A DNA stretch of 35,585 nt from Bacteroidales bacterium (GTDB lineage Bacteria; Bacteroidota; Bacteroidia; Bacteroidales; PUMT01), in assembly GCA_007123885.1 (NCBI GenBank), contig SLGC01000098.1:1-35585 (forward strand), read 5' to 3'. The notes beneath the pieces are model-generated. The model had not been told where the DNA came from. It worked only from the letters and a program-made list of their open reading frames with translations, and did not search any database. The position numbers were made by a program, and so were the translations under genes. Positions 8,637-35,500 of the stretch are shown here, piece by piece. Numbering within the stretch: the stretch's first letter is position 1; the number at the start of each line of letters is the position of its first letter.

Positions 8637-8656
8637 AAACTGCCAGATGGCAGTTT
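8637..8656 (-). terminator. Hairpin at the end of the efflux operon
   Basis: The minus strand reads AAACTGCCA-tc-TGGCAGTTT, a perfect 9-bp stem with a 2-nt centre (so effectively a 4-nt loop). The last arm ends TTTT. It spans the stop codon region of the TolC-type gene, the last gene of the operon. It looks like a weak intrinsic terminator because the T-run is short. Confidence 0.5.
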
Positions 8657-10145: not shown

Positions 10146-10186
10146 TTTGGGATGAGGTATAAAATGAATATTAAAGGTCATTGTGG

Positions 10187-11548
10187 TTATTCGTATCTGA
10201 GTGATTCAATCGGATCTTTTTCAGCCGCTCTTTTGGCAGGTGAATAACCAAAGATCACTCCCACAGATGCTGAAACAAAAAATGCGATCAGCACCGACGA
10301 AAAAGATACGATGGTGGAAATACCGGCAAAATGTGTGATCAGGTTGGAAAGTATGATACCCAGGACAACTCCTATCAGTCCCCCGGTAACACTTATCAGG
10401 ACGGCTTCCGAGAGGAACTGCACAATGATGTCTACCCGGGTGGCTCCTATGGCCTGTCGTGTTCCTATCTCTTTTATTCTTTCCATTACCGAGGCAAACA
10501 TTATGTTCATTATTCCTATGCCCCCTACAATAAGAGATATACTGGCTATTGCACCAAGCACAATATTGAATATTTCCCTGGTACGCTGCTGTTGTTTAAG
10601 AAGCAGTTCGGGAACAGTAACCTCAAAATCCTTGACCTCCGAATGTCTTCTCAAAAGCATACGGCCTATCAATTCTGCTGTAGGGGAAAGATGTTCGGTC
10701 TCGGCAACCTGTACTACTATCTTATCCAGCTGGTGATAATTGGAGCTGGTATTCTGACCGGGGTTAGTGCTTAACATTTGCCTCATACGCATCATGCCTC
10801 TGCCTCCCACGCTCAGTCCCGACCCGGAGGCACTTCTGAGTATTCCCCGGTTCTGGTATCTCATCAGCATGGTCTTGACCGGAATGTAGATATTGTCATT
10901 ATAAACATTTATACCTACATTTTCGAAAGCCGATACTGACACATTGCTTCTTTCCAGTACACCGATTATCTGCAGCCACACATGTCCGAATTTTATATAA
11001 TTTCCTACGGGGTTGACGTCGGGGAAAAACCGGGATTTGATATTTGCTCCTATGACACAGACGGCAAGGCCGTTTTCTTCCTGATGTTCATTAAATACCG
11101 TTCCTGACTCAAGGGGAAGATTAAAAAGATCAAAGTAATCGACCGATACACCAATCAGTTTGGCCGCCTCTCTTTTCCCTCCGGATACGGCATGTGCATT
11201 AAGAGCTATTTCCGGGCTTGTACTTACGACTGTAGGAATAGTGGTGCGGATGGCTTCGGCATCAAGCAGGGTCAGCCCCCTGCTGAATTTTACTCTTTGC
11301 TGCGGCCCGTTTGAATTTTCCTCGTCTACATCGCCTGAAACCTCTACAATGGGAGTGATCATTATATTATTGACACCGACCATTTTTATCTGCTCAAGGA
11401 TCTCCTGCTGCGCCCCGTTACCTATTGCAAGCATACTGATTACAGAGGCCACACCGAAAATGATCCCAAGCGCAGTAAGGATGGACTTGAGTTTATTGGC
11501 CATGATTGATTCCATGGCTATGATCACATCATGAAAATATTTCCTCAT
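10187..11548 (-). CDS. MacB-type ABC transporter permease (FtsX/MacB_PCD)
   Basis: A 453-residue permease with the MacB layout but no ATPase domain. One N-terminal transmembrane helix follows an amphipathic start (MRKYFHDVIIAMESIMANKLKSILTALGIIFGVASVISML). A large periplasmic domain spans about residues 45-325. Three C-terminal helices belong to the FtsX domain, with MERIKEIGTRQAIGATRVDI between the first two. It probably drives a mechanotransmission-type export of a peptide, drug or lipid through the adaptor and TolC-type channel encoded beside it (9 bp and about 5-40 bp spacing). The ATPase it needs is not encoded next to it, unlike many related operons. Confidence 0.92.
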   Translation of the reverse strand: MRKYFHDVIIAMESIMANKLKSILTALGIIFGVASVISMLAIGNGAQQEILEQIKMVGVNNIMITPIVEVSGDVDEENSNGPQQRVKFSRGLTLLDAEAIRTTIPTVVSTSPEIALNAHAVSGGKREAAKLIGVSVDYFDLFNLPLESGTVFNEHQEENGLAVCVIGANIKSRFFPDVNPVGNYIKFGHVWLQIIGVLERSNVSVSAFENVGINVYNDNIYIPVKTMLMRYQNRGILRSASGSGLSVGGRGMMRMRQMLSTNPGQNTSSNYHQLDKIVVQVAETEHLSPTAELIGRMLLRRHSEVKDFEVTVPELLLKQQQRTREIFNIVLGAIASISLIVGGIGIMNIMFASVMERIKEIGTRQAIGATRVDIIVQFLSEAVLISVTGGLIGVVLGIILSNLITHFAGISTIVSFSSVLIAFFVSASVGVIFGYSPAKRAAEKDPIESLRYE

Positions 11549-11557
11549 AGCTTATCA

Positions 11558-12988
11558 TTATCTGTTTCCTGGTCTTTCCCCGGTAACGGAAGCCCCTCCG
11601 GGTCTTTCTGCCTGCCCTGAAGCACCGCCTGTGCGCATCTGCCTTATCCTTTCCTCGCGTTGCCGGTTGATCTCCTGTTCCTCAGCTCTTCTGGCGGCTT
11701 CTTCAGCTTTTACCTGTTCCTTTTTTTCTTCGATCACTGCAATAAGTTCTTCGCCCACCATTCTGTATCTGTCAGGGTTTTCGGGAATGGTAAGGTATAC
11801 CCTGTCATTTTCTTCAAGTCCATGCTCAACAACAACATGGTTGTCATTTGAACCACCAAGAACAACGATCTGCCTTGTTCCTCCCTTCTTGTAAACATAG
11901 GGAATGCTGTCTGAAAGGTTAATGGCTTCAAGAGGGATATACAGCACGTCATTGTATGTCCGGGTAATTATAATATTGCTGGTAGTCATAGCAGGCCGCA
12001 GGATAGGGTCGAATTCATTGATCCTTATCATTACCTCAAAAACCTTTGCATCAGTATTTTGCATCTGTTCACCCACATTTGCCACCTGCATAACCTGACC
12101 GGTATACTGCCGGTCGGGGAAAGCATCGACACCAATGCGGACTTGCTGACCCGCCTGGATTTTGCTGACATCTATCTCGTTCACGTAAGTTCTTGAGAGC
12201 ATTGATGACAGATCAGGAAGAGTAGCAACGGTAAGATCCCATGGACTGATACTGGATCCGACAGTCCTTCTGGCACCATTCCATTCCCTGTGATAAATGA
12301 CCATCCCTGCTTTCGGGGCCCGGATTGTAAATTTATCCAGTACATCAACCATTTCCTGGTAGCGCCGCCTTTGTTGTGACAAATTTATTGCGGCCTCGGT
12401 CATATCTTCATTTGACTGCTGTACCCTTAGCTTGTAGTTTTGTTTTGCCTGCTCAAGTGCTCTTTTTGCCCTGTCCAGGCTGATCTCTGCCTGCCTGATG
12501 GTAGCCGGCGGCTCGAACTGTGATTGTTCCAGGGTAAGTCTTCTTTCCTCAAGTGTGTATTCGAGGTTTATTCGGTCATCCCTGAGGTTGCTCAGGGTGA
12601 TTGTTGTATCAAGCTGTGTTCTTGCATATTGGGTTTCGGCCCTTTCAAGAGCATCTTCCATATCCTTGAGGGCGTTATCCGATTCCGAACGGTCCAGCAG
12701 GGCAACATAATCGCCGGCCTCAACAACTGTTCCTTCCGGCACCAGATCCTGTATCCTTATATTCTGGATACGGAGATTTCTGCTTCTAAGCTCCTGCGGA
12801 CCGGTAATTTGTTCGGAGTTTTCAGCCTGCAACTCTCCCGTAACAGTGACAAGTACCTCAAAGTTACCTCTCATTGCCGGTACATCAATCATTGCTAGAT
12901 TTTCCCTTTCTCCCGCCAGGGCATAATAAATGATACCCAGTATGAGAACGCCGATAACTCCGCTGGTAATGATCGTATTTCGTTTCAT
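11558..12988 (-). CDS. HlyD/MacA-type periplasmic adaptor subunit
   Basis: A 476-residue membrane fusion protein anchored by one N-terminal helix (TSGVIGVLILGIIYYALAG). A barrel-sandwich half-motif (ENLAMIDVPAMRGNFEVLVTVTGEL), a long coiled-coil hairpin (about 100-225, rich in LEQA/RAETQ patterns), the second lipoyl half (FTIRAPKAGMVIYHREWNG) and beta-barrel/membrane-proximal domains follow. It should link the permease with the TolC-type channel. The C-terminus has an extra charged helix (EEKKEQVKAEEAARRAEEQ) and a short tail with two GGAS..ERPG units, not typical of the family core. It is the first gene of its operon, and no clear -7 box was found upstream. Confidence 0.92.
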   Translation of the reverse strand: MKRNTIITSGVIGVLILGIIYYALAGERENLAMIDVPAMRGNFEVLVTVTGELQAENSEQITGPQELRSRNLRIQNIRIQDLVPEGTVVEAGDYVALLDRSESDNALKDMEDALERAETQYARTQLDTTITLSNLRDDRINLEYTLEERRLTLEQSQFEPPATIRQAEISLDRAKRALEQAKQNYKLRVQQSNEDMTEAAINLSQQRRRYQEMVDVLDKFTIRAPKAGMVIYHREWNGARRTVGSSISPWDLTVATLPDLSSMLSRTYVNEIDVSKIQAGQQVRIGVDAFPDRQYTGQVMQVANVGEQMQNTDAKVFEVMIRINEFDPILRPAMTTSNIIITRTYNDVLYIPLEAINLSDSIPYVYKKGGTRQIVVLGGSNDNHVVVEHGLEENDRVYLTIPENPDRYRMVGEELIAVIEEKKEQVKAEEAARRAEEQEINRQREERIRQMRTGGASGQAERPGGASVTGERPGNR

Positions 12989-21201: not shown

Positions 21202-24200
21202 CTACATCTTTAATCCCATGAACAGTATGTCATCAACCTGTTCATTATCTCCCTGCCAGAGCTTGAAATTATTGGTGACATGCTCGAACTGCTCCTTCAA
21301 TGGCTTGTGGCAGATATCCTGCAGAAGGTTTTTGAGACGCATCATTTTGAATTTTTTACCGTGCGGGCCTCCGAACTGATCGGGATATCCGTCTGAGAAC
21401 AGGTAAACTAAATCACCATGATCCAGCTGAAATTCCCGGTTCTCAAAAGATTTTTCATGTGTGGCGTAGCCTCCGATAGAATTACGGCTTCCCCTGATAT
21501 ACATGAGCTCATTTTTATGAAATATCATAATGGGGCGCATGGCAGAGGAAAAACGGAGATAATTTCTTTTTATATCAAATTCACATACCGTCAGGTCCAT
21601 GCCATCTGTCGATCTTCCCAGGTTATCAACATTCTGGTTCAGGGTATTGGCGACTTCCCTGTCAAGTGTCTCAAGTATTTCGGAAGGTGATTTAACATCC
21701 GGCCGGATGCAGATATCCTTTATAAGTGTTGTGCCTATCATTGACATAAATGCCCCGGGTACCCCATGGCCGGTAGAATCGGCGCATACTATCAGGAACT
21801 TGCTTTCATTTACCCTGTCAAACCAGTAAAAATCGCCGCTTACAATATCCCGCGGCTGGTAAAAGACAAATGATTCTGCAAAATTATCTTCCAGTCTTGA
21901 AAAAGGAGGCAGTATACTTGCCTGTATCCTCTGGGCATAGTTTATGCTGTCGGTTATATCCCTGTTCTTGTATTCAATCTCGCGTTTCTGTTCCATCACC
22001 TCTTTGGTCCGAATTACAAGTTCTCTTTCAATACGTTCGTTCTCCAGTCTGAGGTTTCTTTCCCTCAGCTTTATTACAACCAGGATCACAAGTACGGCCA
22101 GAAAGGCAATACCAAGATAGAAATACCATCTCTTCCAGATGGGTGTTGCAATAGTTATGGAAAGTGCCAGGGGCGTTTCATTCACCATTCCTTCAGCAGA
22201 GTATGCACGAAGCAGGAAACTGAAATTCCCGTCGTCCACTCTTGAATAGTAGGCGTATTGTTGATTTGAAATATCAGACCAGTCCAGATCATACCCTTCA
22301 AGCTTATATTGATAGGTAACTTTTTCAGGAGATTTAAAATTCAATCCGACAAAATCGATCCTGAACTTGTAGCTTCCATATGGGAGGGATATCCTGTCAG
22401 TCACCTCATGCTCCTCATCTGAGATTGTAACCGAGGTTATGTTCAGCATGGGCGGGGTCCGGTTACTTCTTTCCAGTGAGGGATCAAAAGAAACCAGTCC
22501 CCCGGTGGTCCCGAATAAAAGAGTGCCTTCGGGTGCCATATGCACGGCATTCAGATTGAAGTCCCCTCTTATTCCACTTTCGGTACTATAGGTGCGAACG
22601 AAATAGTCGTCAGGATTAACCCTGCTCAGGCCGAGCTTGTGGCCCACCCATATGTTCCCGTCATTGCCGGAAGTTATGCTGTAACAGAAATTGGAATGAA
22701 GCCCGTCAGCAGCTATAATATTCACTATCGAATCGCCATCTACCTTGATTATTCCGTTCCGTTCCGTTGCGATCCAAAGACGGTCCCTCTGATCAAGGGT
22801 TGCTGCCACAAAAACAATCTCCCCCTGGGTGATCCTGATTTCCCGGGTATTTTGGATGTTCGCCAGTCTGTTGCCTCTGGTAAAGGCCCATGTTATTCCT
22901 TCGTTATCTTTAAAAATACTGTATATATTATTCCGGGGAAGCCCTTCCATTGTCGTATATCTTGCCTGTTCACCAGTCTGCAGTTTGAATTCGAATACTC
23001 CACCGTTGGTGGCAGCCAGCAGAATGCCATCAGAGAAGAGAAGATGGTTAATTGAGTTTTCGGTTGAATTGGCAGACAGATGAAAGGATGCTGCCTTTCC
23101 ACTTTCCTTATCCAGCCTGTAGATACCACTGTTATCCGTCCCTATCCATAGATCTCCACGGTTGCATTTTGTCAGCGCGGTAACCCTGTCAAATGGCAGT
23201 CCCCGTTGTGTGCCGTAAAATGAGGTGCTGTTGTTTTCCCGGTCTATCCTGAGCAACCCGCTTTCCCCGCCGAGCCATAACCATGAATCGTTGGCGTAGA
23301 CCGCGGATACATTTCGCCCGAAAGGCTCCTCGAAAATCCTCAAAAAGCTGAATGATTCATCAGGAAGCATTGAAAGGCCGTATAAGGTGGCGAACCAGTA
23401 GTTGCCTTCTATATCCTGGAAAACAGAGTAGACATGATTTGCGGCCAGCCCGTTGGCAGTTGAATAGTTTTTAACCTGGGGCAGTGCATCCTGCCCGAAC
23501 CAGTTATTTATTTTGTAGACACCATGACCCGATGTGCCTGCCCAGATATTTGTATCCCGGTCAATATAAACTGACTGAACATTGGAATATCCAAACCCGA
23601 ATCTTCCACCCAGGTTTGTTACATGGTATTTTCCGCCGCTTTCGTTATGCAGATGGAACAATCCTCTGCTCCCTGTTCCAACAAATATTCCCATTTCACC
23701 ATGGCAACTGATTGTTTCGACAGATACAGCAGGAATGCCTTCGATCCTGCCGACCATTTCGGGTTCCCTTCCGGGGATCCGCCTGAACCTGTACAAGCCT
23801 TCAAACGAGCCCACAAGCAGTTCCGATTTGCCTGTGACCGCCATTGCCGTAACAGGAGTCCCGGCAAAGAAGTTGCTGAAGCGGGTTACGTTCATATCGC
23901 TGTCAACAACCACCAAACCGTGCTGCTGTGAAGAGATCAGAATATTGCCGTAGCTGTCTTCGGTTATTCCGGTTATGCGGGTGCTTAAGCCCTGATTATC
24001 CAGAATTTCCAACCTGTTTCCCGCGAGCACCGATATACTTCCGTTGTTATGCCCGAACCACAGCCTGTTTTGGCTGTCGCGGAAACTGATCCTGGCAAAA
24101 TCTGAGGGAAGCGAGTCGCCTGTGGGACCTGATTCAAATTCAAAACCATTGAACCTGGCTAAATCCGTACCTGTTCCTATCCAGATAAAACCCGAAGAGT

Positions 24201-24354
24201 CCTGGTTAACGGTATAAACAAATCCATGCGGTAAACCATCGTCCAGACCGTAGTTCCGGAACTGGTAGATCTGGGCTGAGGCTGAAATCAGAATGCAAAG
24301 TTTTAAAAAGACTATGATTCCTGTAGTTCTGATTAGTGATCTGTGCATCTGCAT
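21202..24354 (-). CDS. Two-component-like propeller sensor with SpoIIE PP2C phosphatase output
   Basis: A 1050-residue membrane sensor. A signal sequence (to about residue 28) precedes a long periplasmic region of Reg_prop repeats (YQFRNYGLDDGLPHGFVYTV, then IWIGTG; similar xxxWIGT units throughout) forming beta-propellers, and a Y_Y_Y domain (YKLEGYDLDWS near 690). One transmembrane helix (WYFYLGIAFLAVLVILVVI, about 745-763) leads to a coiled coil and a SpoIIE-type PP2C phosphatase (about 818-1050) with SGDFYW, ADSTGHGVPGAFMSMIG, FSDGYPDQFGG and QVDDILF, so the metal-binding Asp residues are present. It probably turns a periplasmic signal into dephosphorylation of an unknown protein such as an anti-sigma antagonist. 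It lies 4 bp after the gene for a secreted unknown protein. Confidence 0.93.
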   Translation of the reverse strand: MQMHRSLIRTTGIIVFLKLCILISASAQIYQFRNYGLDDGLPHGFVYTVNQDSSGFIWIGTGTDLARFNGFEFESGPTGDSLPSDFARISFRDSQNRLWFGHNNGSISVLAGNRLEILDNQGLSTRITGITEDSYGNILISSQQHGLVVVDSDMNVTRFSNFFAGTPVTAMAVTGKSELLVGSFEGLYRFRRIPGREPEMVGRIEGIPAVSVETISCHGEMGIFVGTGSRGLFHLHNESGGKYHVTNLGGRFGFGYSNVQSVYIDRDTNIWAGTSGHGVYKINNWFGQDALPQVKNYSTANGLAANHVYSVFQDIEGNYWFATLYGLSMLPDESFSFLRIFEEPFGRNVSAVYANDSWLWLGGESGLLRIDRENNSTSFYGTQRGLPFDRVTALTKCNRGDLWIGTDNSGIYRLDKESGKAASFHLSANSTENSINHLLFSDGILLAATNGGVFEFKLQTGEQARYTTMEGLPRNNIYSIFKDNEGITWAFTRGNRLANIQNTREIRITQGEIVFVAATLDQRDRLWIATERNGIIKVDGDSIVNIIAADGLHSNFCYSITSGNDGNIWVGHKLGLSRVNPDDYFVRTYSTESGIRGDFNLNAVHMAPEGTLLFGTTGGLVSFDPSLERSNRTPPMLNITSVTISDEEHEVTDRISLPYGSYKFRIDFVGLNFKSPEKVTYQYKLEGYDLDWSDISNQQYAYYSRVDDGNFSFLLRAYSAEGMVNETPLALSITIATPIWKRWYFYLGIAFLAVLVILVVIKLRERNLRLENERIERELVIRTKEVMEQKREIEYKNRDITDSINYAQRIQASILPPFSRLEDNFAESFVFYQPRDIVSGDFYWFDRVNESKFLIVCADSTGHGVPGAFMSMIGTTLIKDICIRPDVKSPSEILETLDREVANTLNQNVDNLGRSTDGMDLTVCEFDIKRNYLRFSSAMRPIMIFHKNELMYIRGSRNSIGGYATHEKSFENREFQLDHGDLVYLFSDGYPDQFGGPHGKKFKMMRLKNLLQDICHKPLKEQFEHVTNNFKLWQGDNEQVDDILFMGLKM

Positions 24355-24358
24355 AAAT

Positions 24359-25333
24359 TTAATTTCTTCTTGGCCTCACACCAATACCGTACCGGTACAC
24401 CGGAACACCGCCAATGGGGATAACATAGAATGGGAGAGCCTCGTCATACTGGTTCCGGATATTAACAACCACATTATTGTTCCTGACCAGGGGATCCTGC
24501 TGCTTCCGGAACTGTATCTGCATTGAGGTATTGCGTTCTTCGGGCAGGATTTCCAGCCTGTTCTCTTTCCACTCATCATCGCCGGAAACTGTCAGTAGTT
24601 CCCCCTGCCTGGCAACAGAAATAACCCTTATTTCCCCGTCATAATCCCAGTCAAAATTCCTTATCTCCACGTAAATAGTATGCTCATCAATATAGGGAAA
24701 TATACTGGAGATTTGCTCTGCATCATTCCAGAGCCGGAAGGTATATTCATAGGCAAAAGCGTTTGCCCCTTCCACCGGGATATTCTGTTCGGGATGGGTA
24801 CTGAGGAAGTACCTGTACATGTTTCCGTCATTACCCTCCACTCCCTCGGCAATGACTTTGAACACATTCCCCCCGAACTGCTCCTGGTACTCGCCCTCTG
24901 CGGGATTGAAGGGTCCGAAGGTGTACCATTTATCGTCCCATTCAGGCTCATTACCGAAAGTCCGCGATGCCATCAGGTTGCCGCTGCGGTAGTTGCCCAC
25001 CGGATCGACCCCCTGTGCGTCGGGATCTGAATGGGCTCCTTCGCCTCCATATACAGAAAAATTTATTTTGGTATTCCAGAAGCCGTTTATCTCATCATGT
25101 TCACCCCCGGTATCAGGGTCGAAAACCCTGATATAGACCGGCTGGGTATGCGCTTCGGGGATTACAAAAAAGAATGCCTGGCTGAAATCGTCATCTCCCC
25201 ATGAGGGGCATGCATCGGGCCCGAAGGTGACCAGGTATGGTATGTTCTCATCTTTCGGACATGGAACCTCCTGTGAAAACAAATTCAGGCTAAAACAGGG
25301 AAGGATCAGCAGCAGTAGAAAGGTGAATCTCAT
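24359..25333 (-). CDS. Secreted protein of unknown function, partner gene of the SpoIIE sensor
   Basis: I do not recognise this family. From ATG 25333 the protein is 324 residues with a clear signal peptide (MRFTFLLLLILPCFSLNLFS, then QE). The ORF-track start 16 codons upstream would add non-leader sequence. The mature part is acidic, rich in Asp, Asn, Gly and aromatic residues, and probably all-beta, with two Cys early (VPCPKDE, DACPSW). It contains DPDTGGEHDEINGFWNTK and FDWDYDGEIRVIS, acidic loops that might bind Ca2+, and ends GVPVYRYGIGVRPRRN. There is no type IX C-terminal domain and no lipobox. The stop lies 4 bp before the SpoIIE-sensor start, so the two are almost certainly cotranscribed, and a periplasmic ligand or regulator role is possible. 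Confidence 0.75.
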   Translation of the reverse strand: MRFTFLLLLILPCFSLNLFSQEVPCPKDENIPYLVTFGPDACPSWGDDDFSQAFFFVIPEAHTQPVYIRVFDPDTGGEHDEINGFWNTKINFSVYGGEGAHSDPDAQGVDPVGNYRSGNLMASRTFGNEPEWDDKWYTFGPFNPAEGEYQEQFGGNVFKVIAEGVEGNDGNMYRYFLSTHPEQNIPVEGANAFAYEYTFRLWNDAEQISSIFPYIDEHTIYVEIRNFDWDYDGEIRVISVARQGELLTVSGDDEWKENRLEILPEERNTSMQIQFRKQQDPLVRNNNVVVNIRNQYDEALPFYVIPIGGVPVYRYGIGVRPRRN

Positions 25334-25561: not shown

Positions 25562-26959
25562 TTACTCTGTTACAACTATAAACTTGTAAACACATGCTCT
25601 TTGCTGCCCGGATGAAGTACCGGGCAGGGGCAGCATACCGAGCCTTACCTGGTATGTACCCGGTTCGGCATAGGAATGGGTTATAGTTTCACCTTCATAT
25701 TTTGCCCCGTCGCCTGTTTCCCAGTAAAATCCCTCTTTGTCAAAATCCTTTATGTATGATTCAGATGCATCCAGGATAAATGACCTGCCTGCTCTTACCG
25801 TATCGGGCGCATGGATATATGGCTGCTGTATCCTTTCAATGGTAAATCTGTATTCAGCTACATTGTATTGCATTTCACCCGTTACCAGATCCAAAACGTT
25901 CAGCCTGATAATATAGGTGCCTGTATCCTTGAAACAATGATCTGCCTCCAGTCCCCTGATAATCGTGCCATCTCCCATATCCCACTGGAAATAAAAAAGG
26001 GTGGTGTCCACTGCCTCACCTCTTTGTTCGTAAAATTCATAGCAGAGTTCAGGTTCCTGTATGCTGCTGCACTGTGTAAACAGGGGAAAAGTAGAAATAA
26101 AGGAGTAGATATTATCGGTACCTTCCCTGTTTGAAGAAAAGTAGCCTTTGCCAAGATCCCCCTCTGCTATGAAACCAAACTCATCAGCCTCTGAATTTAT
26201 TGGTTTGGGAAGCCTTACAGGCTTCATCCATCCGCTGCTGCCGGGACTGCTGAAATACAGGTCAAGACGGCTGTTATTGTTATCGGAGGAAAAGTAGATG
26301 CGTCCGCCGGGATGTATATATGGAAATACCTCATCGCCCGGGGAGTTTATAATTTCTCCCAGATTTTCAGGAACCGACCACCTGTTGCCTTCCAGGCGGG
26401 ACATGTAGATATCCATTCCTCCGAATCCCCCCGGCATGTCGCTGGCGAAGAAAAGTATTCTGCCATCGGCGCTTATGCTGGGGTGGGTAAGGTTATAATT
26501 GTCATTATTCCACGGGAATGGTCTTATATTTACCCACTGACCGTTTGCATTGTCTGCCATGAAAATTCCCAGCGTGGATTTTTCATATCGTCTGCCGGGC
26601 AGATTTCTGGTGAAAAAGACCATCGACCCGTCGGCCGAAAAACTTACCGGACCGTCATGGTAATTACTTTGCAGGCTTTTAGAAAAAAGCCTGGGATTCC
26701 TCCAGTTGTCCAATCTACTTTGGTCAGTGTAAAAGATGTTAAACAGATTTTCGTCTTCCCTGGTCATTCTTGTAATAAGGAAGCCGGTACGCTGATTGGA
26801 AGTATAAACCAGTCCCCCGTCATAATAAGCCGGTGCAAATTCATCGTACCGGTCGCTAGTAAAAGGCAGCCGGCTGATCTCATAAAAACTGCGGTTCTGT
26901 GCCACCAGTCCGGCAATGTGGACAGAATAGATTACAAATATGAAATATAATACTCTCAT
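25562..26959 (-). CDS. PD40 beta-propeller protein with two C-terminal PKD domains
   Basis: A secreted 465-residue protein. The signal peptide (MRVLYFIFVIYSVHIAGLVA) precedes WD40-like/PD40 propeller blades (VSFSADGSMVFFTRN, ISADGRILFFASDMPGGFGGMDIY, IHPGGRIYFSSDNNN; about 20-290). Two PKD domains follow (FQWDMGDGTIIRGLEADHCFKDTGTYIIRLNV and FYWETGDGAKYEGETITHSYAEPGTYQVRLGM; about 320-460). It resembles the propeller part of PorE-type type IX proteins but lacks their OmpA domain. It starts 3 bp after the PorP/SprF stop and is the last gene of that operon. A structural or scaffolding role with PorP/SprF and the large cargo is likely but inferred. No type IX sorting tail is present. Confidence 0.88.
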   Translation of the reverse strand: MRVLYFIFVIYSVHIAGLVAQNRSFYEISRLPFTSDRYDEFAPAYYDGGLVYTSNQRTGFLITRMTREDENLFNIFYTDQSRLDNWRNPRLFSKSLQSNYHDGPVSFSADGSMVFFTRNLPGRRYEKSTLGIFMADNANGQWVNIRPFPWNNDNYNLTHPSISADGRILFFASDMPGGFGGMDIYMSRLEGNRWSVPENLGEIINSPGDEVFPYIHPGGRIYFSSDNNNSRLDLYFSSPGSSGWMKPVRLPKPINSEADEFGFIAEGDLGKGYFSSNREGTDNIYSFISTFPLFTQCSSIQEPELCYEFYEQRGEAVDTTLFYFQWDMGDGTIIRGLEADHCFKDTGTYIIRLNVLDLVTGEMQYNVAEYRFTIERIQQPYIHAPDTVRAGRSFILDASESYIKDFDKEGFYWETGDGAKYEGETITHSYAEPGTYQVRLGMLPLPGTSSGQQRACVYKFIVVTE

Positions 26960-26962
26960 TAT

Positions 26963-27877
26963 TTAAAAGTAACGCGGATTAACAACATTTACCCTGAACC
27001 TGAAATCATAGATCAGGGTTATTTCATGAGAACCATTGTTGAATTTGTTAAGCTGACCAAGTGAATAATCATATGTATAGCCTATCCTGAGCCTGTCGCT
27101 TATTTGTATCTTGAAAAGGCCGACCATGGAATCTTCCAGCCTGTATGATGCCCCTATCCATATGAGATCTGCCAGGATAAAAGAGAGGTTTGCATCGAGC
27201 TGCAGGGGATTTTTCTCACTGTACTTTAAAAGAAAGCTTGGTTTAACCTTGAACGGGCCCCGGCCGGCAACAAACCCGCCGCTGATCAGATAATTATAAT
27301 TGCTCATATCATGATAGAGGACAGCTTTGGAATTCCTGGTGCTGTCGCTCAGGAAAAATGGAACGGATGCTCCAAGAAAGAAACGGGATGTATAATAGTA
27401 AATTCCAAAACCAAAATTCGGAAGCATATCACTGGATCCGGGGTCAGAAAAAACAACATCTCCCGGGTCGTGCAATGAAAGTCTGCTCCAGTTCATATTC
27501 CTGTTAATGCCCCCCGCCTTAAGCCCAAGGGACAGTCTCCCTCCTGCAACGGGTATTCTGTATGCATAATTAAGATAAAGGCTGGTATTGTTTCTTACGT
27601 CGATCTGTTCATTATGAAGAAAGATCCCAAGGGCGACATTTTCATTCTTCATTGGAGTATGGGCACTCAGTGTTTGGGACACGGGTGCTCCATCAAATCC
27701 TACCCACTGGTTTCTGTATCCTATCGTTATGTTGAAGACATCACGGCTTCCGGCATAGGCCGGATTAAGGGCAAGTCCATTGAGCATATACTGGCTGTAT
27801 ACGGGAAAAAGATGCTGGGAACCTGCATCTGTGAACAGTAGTAATGGTAATGACAGTATTATAAGAAGCTTTCTCAA
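26963..27877 (-). CDS. Type IX secretion system PorP/SprF family outer-membrane protein
   Basis: A 304-residue outer-membrane beta-barrel of the PorP/SprF family, whose members are needed to secrete or attach partner cargo with type B C-terminal domains. After the signal peptide (RKLLIILSLPLLLFTDAGS) comes the hallmark HLFPVYSQYMLNGLALNPAYAGSRD, then VGFDGAPVSQTLSAHTP and alternating strands to FRFRVNVVNPRYF. The only usable start is TTG at 27877, because a stop (TAA) lies a few codons upstream in frame and the first internal Met is already past the signal peptide. It is 5 bp after the cargo gene and 3 bp before the PKD-propeller gene. Confidence 0.93.
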   Translation of the reverse strand: MRKLLIILSLPLLLFTDAGSQHLFPVYSQYMLNGLALNPAYAGSRDVFNITIGYRNQWVGFDGAPVSQTLSAHTPMKNENVALGIFLHNEQIDVRNNTSLYLNYAYRIPVAGGRLSLGLKAGGINRNMNWSRLSLHDPGDVVFSDPGSSDMLPNFGFGIYYYTSRFFLGASVPFFLSDSTRNSKAVLYHDMSNYNYLISGGFVAGRGPFKVKPSFLLKYSEKNPLQLDANLSFILADLIWIGASYRLEDSMVGLFKIQISDRLRIGYTYDYSLGQLNKFNNGSHEITLIYDFRFRVNVVNPRYF

Positions 27878-27882
27878 TGTCC

Positions 27883-30800
27883 CTAACGTTTTATTATGAT
27901 AAAGCCTTTATATGAATAGCTGTTATCAACATTTAAAATAAAATAATATGTGTCTTCCGGTAATGGTTCGCCATTGTAGTTTCTTCCATCCCAGTCATTA
28001 CGGTAATCCTGAGTCTTGTAAACTACATTTCCCTGCCGGTTGAAAACGGTTATTTCGTTGAACCGGGAATTTTCCAGTCCGCTGATAATGAAACTGTCAT
28101 TCAAACCACTGTTGTTGGGTGAAAATGCATTTGGTATCTGCAGGTCATTCACTGTTATTGTAACCAGGTCGGAAACCGGTTCGCATACGCCGTTATAAAC
28201 TGTCCACCGTAAAATGTTTTCGCCAAATCCCAATCCGGTCAGGAAAGTTTCCGGGTCATCAGGGAAAATTATATTTCCGCTTCCTGCAACAATTTCCCAG
28301 ATCCCGTATGATGACGGCATATGTTCGGGAAGCATGGCAGCCATATGTGTTTCAAAAACAAAGCTGAGATCCTGATCAGTACCGCTGATGGCTTTTTCCG
28401 GCTGTTCGAAAAATGTCACTGAAATTTCTGCATTTGCAGCACATTTCCAGTTCGTTTCTGTCCACCGGAAAGTATGGGTTCCGAAGGAAGATACCGTGGC
28501 AGCCGGATCAGAAGTATTTTCATGGGGAATAAAAATGGTTTCAGGTAAGGATGATTCCCAGTTTCCCCGGCCAATGCTCGGTGTCGCATTCAACTGGATC
28601 CGGGGTCCGCAGATTTCAATGTCGTATCCCGGATCCGGCACCGGGTAACCATACACCCTGATAGTTGCTGCACCACCCAGATTTTCATCAGGTGCCCGGC
28701 AGCCAAAACCATCAACAAGCGACACCAGCTGATAGTTATATGTTATGGAATCATCTGAGGCCGGGGTAAGGGATATGCTGTATTCAGCTGAGTTAATGTT
28801 GCCGGCTGAAAATTCATTGTTTCCATCCGAAAAGACAATATTCCAGTCTCCCTGCCCGCTTAGCAGGAAGGATAATTCGCTTTGACTGCCCGTGCATATG
28901 GTATCATGCGATTCCATCAGTTGGGCATATGAGAAAGGATGGAATTTGACAGAAACAAAATCGCTTGTATCCTTACAGGCATCACCTGATCCGCTGAATA
29001 TGATCCTTCTGAAGAAGGTCGTATCAGACAGGGGAGGTGAGAGGTAATCCTTTTGGTCTGATCCACCTTCTGCTGTTGCCCACATATCGTCTCCACCGGA
29101 TAATTCCCATGTATAATTAAAAATCCCATCTCCGCCGGAAGGCTCAGAACCTGTGAATAGTTCGGGTTGAGTCAGATAACAGATAATCTGGCTTCCGGAA
29201 ATGTCGTTGCCTGAAATTGGGGGCAGCACAAAAACTGTATAAGTGGAGCTTGTATCGGCACATTCTCCCGATTCTACTGTTCTTCTGAAATTGGAAGTGG
29301 CGAATAGCCGGTCAGGGGCATGCGAGGGATCATAATTGCCTGCAATAATTTCCCAGCTGCCATCAGATCTTGATTCCCACATGAAATTATATGTTCCGGT
29401 TCCGAGTCCCCCGGCCGGTTCCTCCGGTGCAACTATGGGCAGCGGGATATCGCCATGGCATATTGTCTGGTCCTGTCCGAGATAATTGTTCCTGATTGAA
29501 GGGTGAACATTTACCGGTACAATATTCGAGCTGTCGATACAGACTCCCGAAGTTGCTATCCGACTGTACCAGGTCGTATCATAAAGGGGGGGCGGATTAT
29601 AATTCAATTGGCTGTTGACATCAACAGCTTCTGTCCACGGCTCAGAAACTCTATTCTGTATCCATAAATAGCTGAAATCGCCTGTGCCCCCTTCTGTGAG
29701 CGGGGGACCGGTAATTTCAGCCGGTGTAGACCCTTCGCAAATTGTTTGATGATCTGAAATAATATTACCCTCTATCTTTGGCTGTATAACTATGGTAATT
29801 ATGTTGCTTGTATCGATTACCGGATCAGGGTCCTGATCAGTAACCACCCTTATAAAATCAGTGGTTTCATAAAGGATCTCCGGCTGATAATCCTTTCCGG
29901 CTGCTCCGTCGATCGGCGACCACACGTCACCTCCGTTTCTTTTCGACCATGAATAAATGTATTCAGGCCGGCCGCCTCTTGGCTGGGTTCCCTCCAGGAT
30001 ATCGGGCGCGGTTTCCTCGCATATAGTATACCGTTCAGTTCTTATGCCATTGAAAAGCAGGCCGTTCAGCAATATTTCAAGCTCTTCGATCTCCGCTCCG
30101 GGTCCCCCGGTTGTTGAGCCGAACGGATCGTTCTGCCGGAGATTTGTACCGCTTGCCCCGGGCCCCAGAGAGAGGCTGATTGAGGGGGACAGACTTTCTC
30201 CCGAATGGATCACACTGCCGCCGCCACCGCCACCACCGGCTCCTGCTTTTTCAGCATGATCCACATCGCCTCCTTTTCCGCCTTTGGCTGATATATTGAC
30301 AGTGCCATGATAATGGTCTATTGATGCAACAATGGTACCTCCTCCGCCACCTCCTCCAGCTCCGGCAGTTGAGGGAGTGAGTACCGATACTCCGTCGGCA
30401 TAGATGCCGTATCCGTCGGTGCTTTCCAGATGATTTGCAATAATAATTACCAGACCTCCGCCATTTCCTCCCGGTGTTGCCGTCCTTTCTTCAAAGCCGG
30501 TTGACCCCCCGCCTCCTCCTCCCATAAAAAAACGGTTTAAAAATAATCCGCCGGCATCAAATAAATGATCTACCAGCCAGTATCCTCCATATCCTCCCGG
30601 TTCTTCCTCACTGACAAGATCAGGGCAACTTTCAGATTCCCTTCCACCAAATCCTCCGGATCCTGAATTTGAACCTCCGCCTCCCCCTGCAAAGCGGCCG
30701 TTCCCCCCGCCCCCGCCGGTGGCCATCCTGCCCCTGCCGTGTACGATAACATTTTCGACAGACAATGTGTCTTCTCCTTCCAGATACCACGTAACAGGGC

Positions 30801-31467
30801 CCTCGCCCTTTTTGCCGGCTTTATCGGATCCTGCAGGGAATGAAAAGTTTTCATATGTGTCAGGATCACTTACGGCACATTCGTTATCAAGGCGCATGAC
30901 GGGTATACCTCCCCGAAAACCTGTTCCAGAAAGATCTATATTGGCTTCAAGCCTGAGAGTATTAGTAGCTATAAGGGCCAGGACACCCCCTGTTACCCCA
31001 TCCCAGGCTTTTGCTTCCAGGGTGCCGGTAACTGTTGCAGATTCATAGCCCCTCACTCTTACCAGCTGGACGGTTTCAACGGAAGTGTAACTGTTAATCA
31101 GCTCTCTGGTAAAAGTAACAGTTTTACCGCTTATGTCGCTTATCAGCAGGAACTCATAATTCCCCGCATCATTGATATCCTGTTGCCTGCCGTAATATTC
31201 CGGCGGAGATGTTTCTATGCTGAACCCCTTCATCTGGATCAACAATACGGTATCACCGGGATGAAAAAATTCAGGATCGGTGACTGTTACAGAATTGACG
31301 TCTACAATAGATTCAACTGCCGAATAATTATTTATTATTCCTGAAATTTCAGTTTGACCATAAACAGTCGCTTTGGATATAATTAAACCAATCATAAACA
31401 ACATGAGAAAAATGCAGGGAGCTTTTTGTCCTTTCCGGGGAAGGCCGATATTGTTAGAATCTATCAA
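27883..31467 (-). CDS. Large surface protein with glycine-rich domain, Ig-like repeats and type B T9SS C-terminal domain
   Basis: A 1194-residue predicted type IX cargo. The N-terminal signal (APCIFLMLFMIGLIISKATVYG) follows a basic stretch. A beta-rich domain and a glycine-rich block (about 250-420) with runs of five to seven Gly come next. About four Ig-like repeats of about 90-95 residues follow, each beginning near TICEGS/TICHGD/IICYLT and containing YxWxxR patterns and a Cys-Asp-Thr-Ser step. The C-terminus (LQIPNAFSPNNSGLNDSFII, then EITVFNRQGNVVYKT and DWDGRNYNGEPLPEDTYYFIL) is the gliding-motility-associated CHU_C/TIGR04131 domain. The start is TTG 31467, since an in-frame stop lies four codons upstream and the next Met would remove the basic leader. 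It is the first gene of the operon. Confidence 0.9.
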   Translation of the reverse strand: MIDSNNIGLPRKGQKAPCIFLMLFMIGLIISKATVYGQTEISGIINNYSAVESIVDVNSVTVTDPEFFHPGDTVLLIQMKGFSIETSPPEYYGRQQDINDAGNYEFLLISDISGKTVTFTRELINSYTSVETVQLVRVRGYESATVTGTLEAKAWDGVTGGVLALIATNTLRLEANIDLSGTGFRGGIPVMRLDNECAVSDPDTYENFSFPAGSDKAGKKGEGPVTWYLEGEDTLSVENVIVHGRGRMATGGGGGNGRFAGGGGGSNSGSGGFGGRESESCPDLVSEEEPGGYGGYWLVDHLFDAGGLFLNRFFMGGGGGGSTGFEERTATPGGNGGGLVIIIANHLESTDGYGIYADGVSVLTPSTAGAGGGGGGGTIVASIDHYHGTVNISAKGGKGGDVDHAEKAGAGGGGGGGSVIHSGESLSPSISLSLGPGASGTNLRQNDPFGSTTGGPGAEIEELEILLNGLLFNGIRTERYTICEETAPDILEGTQPRGGRPEYIYSWSKRNGGDVWSPIDGAAGKDYQPEILYETTDFIRVVTDQDPDPVIDTSNIITIVIQPKIEGNIISDHQTICEGSTPAEITGPPLTEGGTGDFSYLWIQNRVSEPWTEAVDVNSQLNYNPPPLYDTTWYSRIATSGVCIDSSNIVPVNVHPSIRNNYLGQDQTICHGDIPLPIVAPEEPAGGLGTGTYNFMWESRSDGSWEIIAGNYDPSHAPDRLFATSNFRRTVESGECADTSSTYTVFVLPPISGNDISGSQIICYLTQPELFTGSEPSGGDGIFNYTWELSGGDDMWATAEGGSDQKDYLSPPLSDTTFFRRIIFSGSGDACKDTSDFVSVKFHPFSYAQLMESHDTICTGSQSELSFLLSGQGDWNIVFSDGNNEFSAGNINSAEYSISLTPASDDSITYNYQLVSLVDGFGCRAPDENLGGAATIRVYGYPVPDPGYDIEICGPRIQLNATPSIGRGNWESSLPETIFIPHENTSDPAATVSSFGTHTFRWTETNWKCAANAEISVTFFEQPEKAISGTDQDLSFVFETHMAAMLPEHMPSSYGIWEIVAGSGNIIFPDDPETFLTGLGFGENILRWTVYNGVCEPVSDLVTITVNDLQIPNAFSPNNSGLNDSFIISGLENSRFNEITVFNRQGNVVYKTQDYRNDWDGRNYNGEPLPEDTYYFILNVDNSYSYKGFIIIKR
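30210..30720 (-). repeat. Polyglycine-coding segment of the surface protein
   Basis: This segment holds several GGN-rich runs (plus-strand ccgccaccgcca-type and cctcctcct-type) encoding GGGGG to GGGGGGG clusters. They are separated by ordinary sequence at intervals of about 30-50 residues. It is not a simple tandem array, and codons vary, which argues for selection at the protein level. Confidence 0.7.
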
Positions 31468-31769: not shown

Positions 31770-34700
31770 TTAATTTGCAGATTGTATGCCGGCATACGGG
31801 ATCCTGAAAAAGAAGCAGCTGCCTTTTCCATACTGGCTTGTAAAGCCGACGCTACCTCCATTTTGCTCAACTATGCTTTTGACAATAGCCAGACCCAGTC
31901 CCGTTCCTCCTGATTTGGTGGTAAAATAGGGAGTAAACATTTTCTTCCTGATCTCTTCAGGTACTCCCGTTCCGTTGTCATATATCTTAACCAGCACCAT
32001 TTCCTTTTCCCTTATCAGGTCAATGGTTATTTTCCCTTTTCTTTCAGGGGGAATTGACTGGACCGAGTTTTTTAGCAGATTAATAAAGATCCGGTTCAGC
32101 TGTATTTTGTCAGCTGCTACCGGAACATTTTCTATGCCATTTACATTTACAAATATTTCAATGTTCTCATTATTGGAAAACAGACCTGCAACATTTGTAA
32201 TTGCACTGACAATATTTGCATTGGAAGTTGTAGGTCTGGGCATCCTGGCGAAATCGGAAAAAGCTGAGGCTATAGATGAAAGATGGTCTATCTGTTCTAT
32301 CAGGTTACGTGTGGTTTTCTTGAATATTTCATCCCAGTTATCAACTTTATCTTCCCATGATCTTTGCAGATGTTGAATACTTAATTTCATAGGAGTCAGC
32401 GGGTTTTTTATCTCATGCGCTATCTGTTTTGCCATTTCCCGCCATGCACTTTCCCGCTCTGATCTGGCCAGCAGTTCTGCACTGTTTTCAAGTTCACCCA
32501 CCATTCTGTTATATTCCCTGATCAGGTTCCCTATTTCATCATCACCCTCATAATCAATCTGTTCATTTGACCTGCCAATTGAAAGTTTTCGCAGCTTGTT
32601 CTGTATAAGCCTGAGAGGCTTTGTTATGGTATTTGAAACTACAACAGCAATAAATACTGTTATCAGAATGAGAATAGCATATATGTTGACAACTGCAACC
32701 ACAAGAGTATAAATCTCCATTTGCAGGATGGATTGTCTTGTAAAATAGGGAAGGTTAATATATGAAAGCAGCTCATTTTCAGCATTTATAAGAGGCACAT
32801 ATGCCGAAAGGTAGGAAAGGTTACCTATAGATTCCCTGTGTACAAACCTTACACTGTTATTAAAAAGCATTGCTGAATATGCCTGTGGATTCATTTGTTC
32901 TCCTATCAGGTTCAGTTCAAAGACTTCCGGGCGGGATGAGGCATACAAAAATCCATCAGGATCGTACAGGTTTATATCGGTATAAAAGATATTTGACAGT
33001 TGTATCAGCATACCGGTAATATCATCCCTGATTTCAGGATCAAGTTGCCTCTCCATACCAAGATTATATTCCATATCTATCAGCACAGACTGTATCTTTT
33101 CGCTTATATTTTCATATTGCTGATCCTCAAACTGCCTGATAGTATAATAGATAGTTCCTACGCCAATAATGATAAGGGAAAGCAGCAGCACACCGATCAT
33201 GGAAATTTTGATCTTATTCTTGAAATCAATTCGCCATCTCCTGATATCCAGGGGGTATTTACAAACCAGAAGTCCGAGACTGTAAAGCAGGTAAAAAAAT
33301 ACGAAACTGTATGAGAATGAGGTAATAAGGTTAAAGGTTGTGAATTTGGGTTTACTCAGTATGATCAGATTTTCATGATCAACCTGATAAGCAAGATGCT
33401 TGTATCCTTCTTTCTCGAAAAAATCAATTACCACGTCGGATTCCCTGTCATTCTCCATTACCAGGGGATAGGAATAATATCCGGACCTGGTTATCAATCT
33501 GTCATTAATATATTTGGCATATGAGTAATCATTAATGATCTGGTTGCGGATAAATGTCCCTTCAATAAGCAGTTCGGGAAAACCTAGCTGGGTATCCATT
33601 ATTTTGCTGTCAAGCGAAATGAATATCCTTTTTTCATATGGATACTGCTCGAGTTCATACACAATTATTCCAAGATAACTTATTCTTCCGATCAGGTTAT
33701 CAAGAAAATAAAAACCCGAACCCGGAGAAACCGGTATGCCAAATTCTTCAGCCATATCATAAAAGAAGGAATAGCAGTCCACCAGCTCATCTACGTCGGC
33801 AAGATGAAGATCTGTAAGGTCATGGCAGGATGCAACCTGAAGGTCATATTTCCTGAAATACCCGCTGAAATGGTTGCTTCTTAGATAGTTATAAAGATCG
33901 TAGTCATCGTGAAGGTGTGATTGCAGCATGTAATGGATCACTTTATCTGACAGGAGGTTATCCTGGATTTCGTGCATCAGGAACTCGGCAACCTGATCAC
34001 GCTCATTTGCCAGGTTGACAGCAATTACCTGCATTATGTTTTTTTCCTTTTCCCTGCTTTTTTTTGTAATAAAGGCAAGGGTGAACATGGAGATCAGGAA
34101 AACAAGGAATACCTGGAATGAATAGGAATATCTGTACCGGAAATATCTTATACCTGCAATTGTTCCTGTAATCAAAATGAAAAAGAGAATGGCATATACC
34201 GATATCGGGTTTTCAAAAGCTATGTATGTCAGGATCCCTGCTGCAAATGAAAGCAAAAACAGGGAAATGAAACTTCTAAGTCCAAGCAGGGTTGAGGAAA
34301 TAGAAACTATCTTGTCTGCCAGAAGAACCAGTGATGCCAGCAGCATTGCAAGGATTAAATATGCAATAAGGCTGAACTGATTGAGATGGACAAAATTATA
34401 TACTTCAAGTTGAATATTTGAATTGAAGATCAGCCCGGAAAACATGTTATGGAAAAAAAACATAAAACCTACAAGGATCAGGTTTAAAAAAACAACCGTC
34501 AATACCCGCACAGACCCGGGGGAGTTGATTATTCTGGTTGGCAACCTGAAATGAGCAGAAAAACAGGCTGTTGCAAAAAGAATAAATGCTGAGTTAATAA
34601 GAAAATCTCCCAGTGATGGAAAAAGGGATGATTTTGCATAATGCTGGGGCTGGAACAGGGAGTAGCTTTTAAAAATCCGGGGAACATCTGCTTCAAGCAT

Positions 34701-35477
34701 AAAGTACCTGACCAGAAGAAGGATTATAATTACAGCTCCGAACCAAAGATTTTTTTTATCGGTGGCTAAAAAACTAAAGCTTTTGAATAGAAAAATCAGA
34801 AAAAATAAGAGGGCAAGTGAATACAACGAAACAGCAACAAGAGAAAACTGCCAGTGATATGACGGAGGGTGCGGTTCTATCAGTGAAAAAAGAAAATTGC
34901 CATCAGGATCTGTGATTACATTACCTGCATCAGGAAAAAATTCAAGTTCTACTTCGGGATGTAATTTGAAATCCGGATGAAAATTATTGACCAGGAATTC
35001 ATTTTCAAATACATAATCATTCTTAACAGGTATGAGGGCAAACAGGTTTACAGTATCGTCCGGTTGATTGTTTACAATAACATACCAGCCATTGCCCGGG
35101 TTTATCAGGCGCTGGTTATCCGGAGTTATGTTTTCTTCAAGATTAAGTGTGACTATATTACTGTTCCAGAATTTAAGATCCTGATTGTAGTACCCCAGGA
35201 AAACGGTGCCTTCTTTTTGAAATAGTTCAAAATACTCATCTGAATATTTTTTTATAAATGCATCGATGCCATTGTTTTCTATCAATGAACTCATTTCTTC
35301 AAGATGAGAGGATGCTTCCTTATATTTCTCGTCCAATACCGACTGGAAACGTGAAACATTGATTTTTCTGGCATCCAGAATGCCGATATTGCGTTCAATT
35401 GCGGTTGCTGTAAAAAGCAGCAAAAGTGCAATTATCAAAAATCTGTAATCGTTCAATATCTTAATATATTTTGCCAT
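31770..35477 (-). CDS. Large multi-span membrane sensor histidine kinase
   Basis: A 1235-residue histidine kinase. I start it at ATG 35477 (MAKYIKILNDYRFLIIALLLLF), because the ORF-track start is an upstream TTG. Layout: one N-terminal helix, an extracytoplasmic domain (about 28-205), about eight closely spaced helices (about 207-470), a second large domain (about 480-715), two helices, a third sensor-like domain (about 785-925), a helix and HAMP (TNTITKPLRLIQNKLRKL-like region near 955), HisKA with AWREMAKQIAHEIKNPLTPMKLS (His near 1022), and HATPase_c with NLLKNSVQS, YDNGTGVP and GGTGLGLAIVKSIVEQ. The kinase core resembles the NtrY group. No response regulator lies adjacent in the window. 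The signal is unknown. It begins 23 bp after rlmH. Confidence 0.93.
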   Translation of the reverse strand: MAKYIKILNDYRFLIIALLLLFTATAIERNIGILDARKINVSRFQSVLDEKYKEASSHLEEMSSLIENNGIDAFIKKYSDEYFELFQKEGTVFLGYYNQDLKFWNSNIVTLNLEENITPDNQRLINPGNGWYVIVNNQPDDTVNLFALIPVKNDYVFENEFLVNNFHPDFKLHPEVELEFFPDAGNVITDPDGNFLFSLIEPHPPSYHWQFSLVAVSLYSLALLFFLIFLFKSFSFLATDKKNLWFGAVIIILLLVRYFMLEADVPRIFKSYSLFQPQHYAKSSLFPSLGDFLINSAFILFATACFSAHFRLPTRIINSPGSVRVLTVVFLNLILVGFMFFFHNMFSGLIFNSNIQLEVYNFVHLNQFSLIAYLILAMLLASLVLLADKIVSISSTLLGLRSFISLFLLSFAAGILTYIAFENPISVYAILFFILITGTIAGIRYFRYRYSYSFQVFLVFLISMFTLAFITKKSREKEKNIMQVIAVNLANERDQVAEFLMHEIQDNLLSDKVIHYMLQSHLHDDYDLYNYLRSNHFSGYFRKYDLQVASCHDLTDLHLADVDELVDCYSFFYDMAEEFGIPVSPGSGFYFLDNLIGRISYLGIIVYELEQYPYEKRIFISLDSKIMDTQLGFPELLIEGTFIRNQIINDYSYAKYINDRLITRSGYYSYPLVMENDRESDVVIDFFEKEGYKHLAYQVDHENLIILSKPKFTTFNLITSFSYSFVFFYLLYSLGLLVCKYPLDIRRWRIDFKNKIKISMIGVLLLSLIIIGVGTIYYTIRQFEDQQYENISEKIQSVLIDMEYNLGMERQLDPEIRDDITGMLIQLSNIFYTDINLYDPDGFLYASSRPEVFELNLIGEQMNPQAYSAMLFNNSVRFVHRESIGNLSYLSAYVPLINAENELLSYINLPYFTRQSILQMEIYTLVVAVVNIYAILILITVFIAVVVSNTITKPLRLIQNKLRKLSIGRSNEQIDYEGDDEIGNLIREYNRMVGELENSAELLARSERESAWREMAKQIAHEIKNPLTPMKLSIQHLQRSWEDKVDNWDEIFKKTTRNLIEQIDHLSSIASAFSDFARMPRPTTSNANIVSAITNVAGLFSNNENIEIFVNVNGIENVPVAADKIQLNRIFINLLKNSVQSIPPERKGKITIDLIREKEMVLVKIYDNGTGVPEEIRKKMFTPYFTTKSGGTGLGLAIVKSIVEQNGGSVGFTSQYGKGSCFFFRIPYAGIQSAN

Positions 35478-35500
35478 ATTAATTGTCAAAACATGAATTT

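Follow-up and report, generated by a model that had tools for sequence, protein, structure and literature searches.

In the stretch of Bacteroidales DNA analysed here (35,585 nucleotides, hereafter the window), we have identified a five-gene cluster that is conserved in many uncultured Bacteroidales and that encodes, in this order, a T9SS cargo (B), a PorP/SprF-family shuttle (P), a propeller/PKD protein (W), a secreted protein predicted to be all-beta (D) and a receptor-phosphatase (S). A preliminary description had delineated a three-gene unit made of B, P and W, whose coordinates, spacing and domains are borne out by ORF positions, Pfam and NCBIfam. These genes are real and adjacent, but the unit was cut too short, as D and S are equally tightly linked, and the three named genes are the front of the B-P-W-D-S cluster. 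Because D and S belong to the unit, its likely function shifts from export alone to export plus signalling. On an evenly balanced judgement, we propose that B-P-W-D-S could be a surface-display and sensing cassette, in which a statically anchored adhesin would be wired to a cytoplasmic PP2C phosphatase as an outside-in sensor.

Organization and Conservation of the Cluster

The genes of B, P and W run head to tail on the minus strand (31467-25562), with gaps of 5 bp between B and P and 3 bp between P and W, and are followed downstream by two further conserved genes, D and then S (Table 1). ORFs were called mechanically and gene starts are therefore approximate. The source genome carries the T9SS translocon gene sprA/sov (a 2510-aa open frame) and thus possesses a T9SS. 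Elsewhere in the window are located Na/Ca exchanger and Na/H antiporter genes (967-1902 and 7140-8435) and a MacB-type tripartite efflux set of three genes (8655-12988: membrane-fusion protein, MacB/FtsX permease and outer-membrane efflux protein).

Table 1. Features of the B-P-W-D-S cluster and of its upstream neighbour, in window coordinates
Feature	Position	Strand	Basis
T9SS cargo B, 1194 aa: signal peptide, AgmC-N-like glycine-rich head, Ig-like repeats, type B CTD	27883..31467	-	Pfam/NCBIfam; repeats by eye
AgmC_N-like head of cargo B	30193..31344	-	matches NF047640, below cut-off
CHU_C / TIGR04131 type B sorting domain of cargo B	27892..28140	-	Pfam/NCBIfam
PorP/SprF-family outer-membrane shuttle P, 304 aa, no cysteine	26963..27877	-	Pfam/NCBIfam
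Propeller/PKD protein W, 465 aa: signal peptide, PorE-type PD40 propeller, two PKD, no OmpA	25562..26959	-	
Secreted protein D, 324 aa, ORF open to 25381, new family, predicted all-beta	24359..25333	-	
Receptor-phosphatase S, 1050 aa: signal/anchor, Reg_prop propellers, Y_Y_Y, TM 745-763, SpoIIE/PP2C	21202..24354	-	
Histidine kinase H, conserved upstream neighbour	31770..35489	-	

A D-based scan of named bacterial genomes retrieved 449 relatives, of which the best 80 loci were read; as these are the best-scoring of the 449, locus diversity is under-sampled. Most of the records compared are metagenome-assembled genomes (MAGs), and sediment MAGs of the CSSed/T1Sed/T3Sed type supply most of the cassette's closest named relatives. 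Among these best 80 loci, S directly follows D in all 79 that are testable, W directly precedes D in 74 of the 80 and belongs to the same cluster in 79, P lies immediately ahead of W in 73 of 74, and the gene immediately ahead of P is a cargo in 69 of 69. With the order kept in about 80 loci, the arrangement is not due to chance. The dedicated cargo-plus-exporter pair postulated in the preliminary description is well supported, but it is already established biology, since type B substrates of F. johnsoniae are known to need the cognate PorP/SprF protein encoded next door (PMC12618676). The third gene of that description is likewise common to related cassettes, as the above counts for W indicate.

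All five genes are found together, for example, in Marinilabiliaceae bacterium ANBcel2 (L201), an organism that may be in culture. Deviations from the canonical order are few. The sole locus of the 80 without W in the cluster (L221) lies on a contig that starts just upstream, and in five further loci W is in the cluster but other genes separate it from D. In L168 and L217, whose genomes are related, these are two small unidentified ORFs of 105 and 129 aa, in L210 and L226 a second cargo-PorP pair is inserted, and L204 is rearranged to W-P-S-D, with PorP and a copy of S between W and D and further S pieces downstream. In another locus (L231), two S-like genes stand in a row. Over the loci, median gaps are 0 bp for B-P, 1 bp for P-W, 56 bp for W-D and 7 bp for D-S. 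No other gap inside the cassette is as long as W-D, which measures 228 bp in the window for a D start at 25333, and D-S may therefore be transcribed from its own promoter.

At a broader taxonomic scale, every one of the 16 genomes of the source family has full-length relatives of W, some of which run off a contig end (clearly those of G004 and G009), and ten more families of the order have them too. In the set of 99 genomes from the order, the families with D are precisely those with full-length W, namely 11 of 84 (Fisher p = 5e-14, by family). As only one of the approximately four cargo-PorP pairs of the source genome carries W, this protein characterises a subfamily and does not belong to type B export in general. 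Compared with the window, the best 80 loci show a median identity of 58% in D, 43% in S, 41% in P and 37% in W, which makes D the most conserved and slowest-evolving of these four members.

Cargo and Shuttle

Cargo B has a TTG start and a signal peptide-like N-terminus. Its residues 1110-1194 (of 1194) match CHU_C with 82 bits (cut-off 27) and TIGR04131 with 62.5 bits (cut-off 35), and this sorting domain at the extreme C-terminus, together with the porP/sprF-like gene directly downstream, identifies B as a putative type B substrate. The Ig-like repeats were read by eye and have no Pfam match. Regarding the head of the protein, residues 42-425 match the N-terminal model of the Myxococcus protein AgmC (NF047640) with 197 bits (E 4e-58) over positions 41-398 of 412, an alignment that clearly points to homology with the AgmC N-terminal domain. 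In B, the domain stands at the front of a T9SS cargo that ends in a type B CTD, and it scores below the family cut-off of 275 bits. AgmC membership was accordingly rejected, none of the 99 genomes having a protein over this cut-off. A PDB sequence search with the cargo head returned nothing credible, and nothing relevant on AgmC was found in the open-access literature.

AgmC-like heads are present in 26 of 26 cassette genomes compared with 5 of the 73 others (p = 2e-10, by family). The head varies among cassettes, being AgmC-like in most loci and not in others, for instance in G143, where HYR repeats are found. AgmC_N-like domains were also seen in genomes devoid of the D cassette (G079, with a 2470-aa open frame, G042, G063, G027 and G041).

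Shuttle P matches PorP_SprF (PF11751) with 253 bits and TIGR03519 with 257 bits, both over cut-off and along the whole barrel. In SprF, the shuttle of the movable type B cargo SprB, a C-terminal Cys-Xaa-Cys tail is bonded to GldK, and this twin-cysteine CxC motif has been shown to be necessary for continuous helical movement (PMC12635249). A CxC within the last 40 residues was found in none of 73 homologous P tails and, as these tails are without it, the front half of the cassette (B-P-W) is best read as static surface display. The SprB-SprF pair and the pair described here are alike in consisting of a type B cargo with a PorP/SprF shuttle directly after it; they differ by the shuttle tail, by the PorE-type partner and by the AgmC-like cargo head of the latter, the SprB sequence itself not having been compared.

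The Propeller/PKD Protein W

W contains PD40 (50 bits) and two PKD_4 stretches, and neither Pfam nor NCBIfam detects an OmpA domain in the window protein. Its residues 12-288 match the propeller part of the PorE model NF052230 with 185 bits, a likeness that, along with the AgmC-like head of B, had gone unremarked in the preliminary description. As this is far from the cut-off of 600 bits, covers the propeller part only and comes without OmpA, W is, judged from its sequence, PorE-like and not PorE; a true PorE, encoded elsewhere in the source genome, scores 699 on the same model. Two builds of W can be distinguished in the same cassette position: one of 467-498 aa, without OmpA and mostly accompanied by AgmC-type cargos, and a second of 618-724 aa, mostly with a C-terminal OmpA domain and accompanied by other cargos. 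In a tree of the propeller domains, nearly all W proteins cluster together next to PorE, and the OmpA-bearing W are nested within this cluster; the deeper branches are moderately supported, and two W on long branches are placed on the side of PorE.

The absence of an OmpA anchor, emphasized in the preliminary description, hence holds for the window protein but not for some of its homologues, and the suggestion of a specific scaffold or adaptor was roughly right, although a known model already exists in the PorE-type propeller (PMC12618676, PMC9143113). Indeed, operons combining a cargo, a PorP and a PorE-like protein have been described (PMC12618676, PMC9143113). In P. gingivalis, the peptidoglycan-binding PorE interacts with PorP, and static cargo-PorP-PorE-like complexes have been proposed (PMC9143113, PMC12618676), while the mobile type B cargos are not found in operons with PorE-like genes (PMC12618676). 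The closest known systems are operons of the Fjoh_3952-3951-3950 type in F. johnsoniae (PMC12618676) and the PG1035-PorP-PorE complex in P. gingivalis (PMC9143113), which share with the present cassette a cargo with a type B CTD, immediately followed by a cognate PorP/SprF and after it by a PorE-type propeller, and for which static anchoring is expected. In contrast to these systems, W has two PKD domains and is without the N-terminal part and the OmpA domain of PorE, the cargo bears an AgmC-like head, and D and S follow.

Protein D

D has no match in Pfam or NCBIfam and no credible sequence relative in the PDB. An earlier model built from 22 sequences was poor (pLDDT 73), and a model built from 82 sequences reached a mean pLDDT of 93 and a pTM of 0.90, with an all-beta fold consistent with two beta-sandwich domains. 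With Foldseek, the best probabilities were obtained for tandem binding domains (ColG s3a-s3b, SIDT2 ectodomain) and DeCLIC N-terminal domains, with TM-scores of at most about 0.26, too low for a family to be assigned. According to the model, D would be rich in beta-sandwiches and resemble tandem binding domains such as ColG s3a-s3b; no more can be said from it.

Elsewhere in the phylum, D was found in 16 of 396 sampled members, mostly as distant fusions. In another class, proteins about 1600 aa long begin with a D-like domain, which is followed by long PKD arrays (L138, L139, L140, L141-L145); one fusion protein that was scanned contains some 15 PKD domains. Response-regulator-SpoIIE and/or histidine-kinase genes lie close to several of these loci. 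Through such fusions and neighbours in another class, D is tied independently to PKD proteins and to phosphatase signalling. In L138, the D-like fusion adjoins a LysM-FecR protein.

The Receptor-Phosphatase S and the Upstream Kinase

In S, Reg_prop, Y_Y_Y and SpoIIE all score over the Pfam cut-off and a single transmembrane segment precedes the phosphatase. With a sensor, a transmembrane segment, a SpoIIE domain and the metal-binding aspartates, S has the hallmarks of receptor-type SpoIIE/PP2C phosphatases. The PP2C aspartates (Asp841, 859, 920 and 1042) are conserved in about 65-67 of 68-70 homologues. The periplasmic part resembles Bacteroides hybrid two-component sensors (4a2l, E 1e-47) and the phosphatase domain a solved serine phosphatase (6k4e, E 3e-35). 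Like the BT4663-type sensors (PDB 4a2l), S combines periplasmic Reg_prop propellers and Y_Y_Y with a transmembrane segment and a cytoplasmic output; unlike them, its output is a SpoIIE/PP2C serine phosphatase and not a histidine kinase/response regulator, and its gene resides in a T9SS cargo operon and not in a polysaccharide locus. Identity with SiaA was rejected, NF038263 giving 177 bits for a cut-off of 700. Next to S, no STAS or anti-sigma partner was recognised; the source genome encodes three STAS proteins, all located elsewhere, and five SpoIIE proteins in all.

Upstream of the cassette, the histidine kinase H precedes the cargo in 43 of 49 loci, with a median gap of 150 bp. Full-length homologues of H occur in the majority of genomes from the order, whether or not these carry the cassette. 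Given this distribution and the median gap, H was not retained as a sixth cassette member and is probably a conserved neighbour, not a dedicated part. Another contig (G000:C296:6966-7391) contains a fragment of 142 residues that shares 93% identity with the N-terminal end of the window H and is either a duplicate fragment or a strain variant in the assembly.

Proposed Mechanism and Alternative Explanations

The cassette as we read it would operate in four steps. In the first one, for which there is close precedent, B would cross the outer membrane via the T9SS, be extracted by its cognate P through the type B CTD and stay attached to P, with the AgmC-like head outside. In the second, suggested by the PorE family, a periplasmic W would bind the periplasmic side of P and hold the complex still; the twin-cysteine motif by which SprF is coupled to the gliding track is absent from P. 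In the third, argued from gene linkage, the periplasmic all-beta D may bridge W, or the occupied P-B complex, to the propeller/Y_Y_Y part of S. Finally, as its domain architecture and intact catalytic residues suggest, S would span the inner membrane and switch its cytoplasmic PP2C serine phosphatase on or off, thereby informing the cytoplasm of contact, assembly or loading of the surface complex. The gene order, co-occurrence, domain composition, topology signals and intact PP2C aspartates are direct observations; the wiring of the surface complex to S we infer from gene linkage, co-occurrence, fusion and domain content.

The most serious alternative, which we nonetheless find rather unlikely, is that B-P-W is an ordinary static anchoring operon and D-S a separate signalling pair making no physical contact with it and controlling, for example, expression of the cassette. 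Cargo, PorP and PorE-like operons of F. johnsoniae have indeed been described with no mention of D or S (PMC12618676, PMC9143113), and the long W-D gap would fit such a division. So would G077, in which the cassette is split between different contigs into B-P-W and D-S, and L181 and G056:C129, in which W-D-S stands without an adjacent recognised cargo or shuttle. However, G077 has kept both halves of the split cassette, D tracks W perfectly across families, even where the two are unlinked, its conservation is far above what would be expected for a bystander, and another class has D-like domains joined to PKD arrays in single proteins.

Two other explanations deserve consideration. It appears improbable that D and W serve in assembly or attachment, as periplasmic chaperones or cargo-loading accessories, with S acting in secretion quality control as an envelope-stress-like assembly sensor. 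This would accord with the predicted periplasmic location of W and D, with the conservation of D while the cargo head varies, and with the T9SS surface component PorZ, which also has a propeller and Y_Y_Y-type domains and to which S gives a weak, partial match of 50 bits; yet this match is far under the cut-off (260 bits) and shared repeats account for it, and no chaperone family was recognised in D. We regard as very improbable a gliding system in which cargo B would be a mobile adhesin and its AgmC-like head a mark of motility. Although NF047640 is named after an adventurous gliding motility protein and SprB, with its SprF shuttle, is itself a type B cargo (PMC12635249), the AgmC match stays below cut-off in all 99 genomes, the 73 shuttle tails are without the CxC that continuous helical movement requires (PMC12635249), and mobile type B cargos lie outside operons with PorE-like genes (PMC12618676).

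Conclusion

The prevailing view of type B T9SS proteins is that they serve as adhesins, some moved and others anchored. While the cargo-PorP pairing and the triad of cargo, PorP and PorE-like protein are already known, the presence of D and S after them is new. Searches of the open-access literature found nothing joining type IX secretion, SpoIIE, phosphatase and Bacteroid-, and nothing relevant on Reg_prop/SpoIIE with the T9SS. We advance, as a reading nearly as likely as not, a widespread and hitherto undescribed form of outside-in signalling in Bacteroidota, in which a T9SS-exported surface protein, retained by its shuttle and a PorE-like propeller, would signal through D, a new periplasmic family, to an inner-membrane receptor with a PP2C serine phosphatase as output. 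As the most conserved member of the cassette, with a confidently predicted fold and without annotation, D offers a defined entry point into this system. The existence of a cassette with D and a receptor-phosphatase suggests that some type B proteins report to the cell interior, which, if true, would give Bacteroidota a means of surface sensing that spans two membranes.
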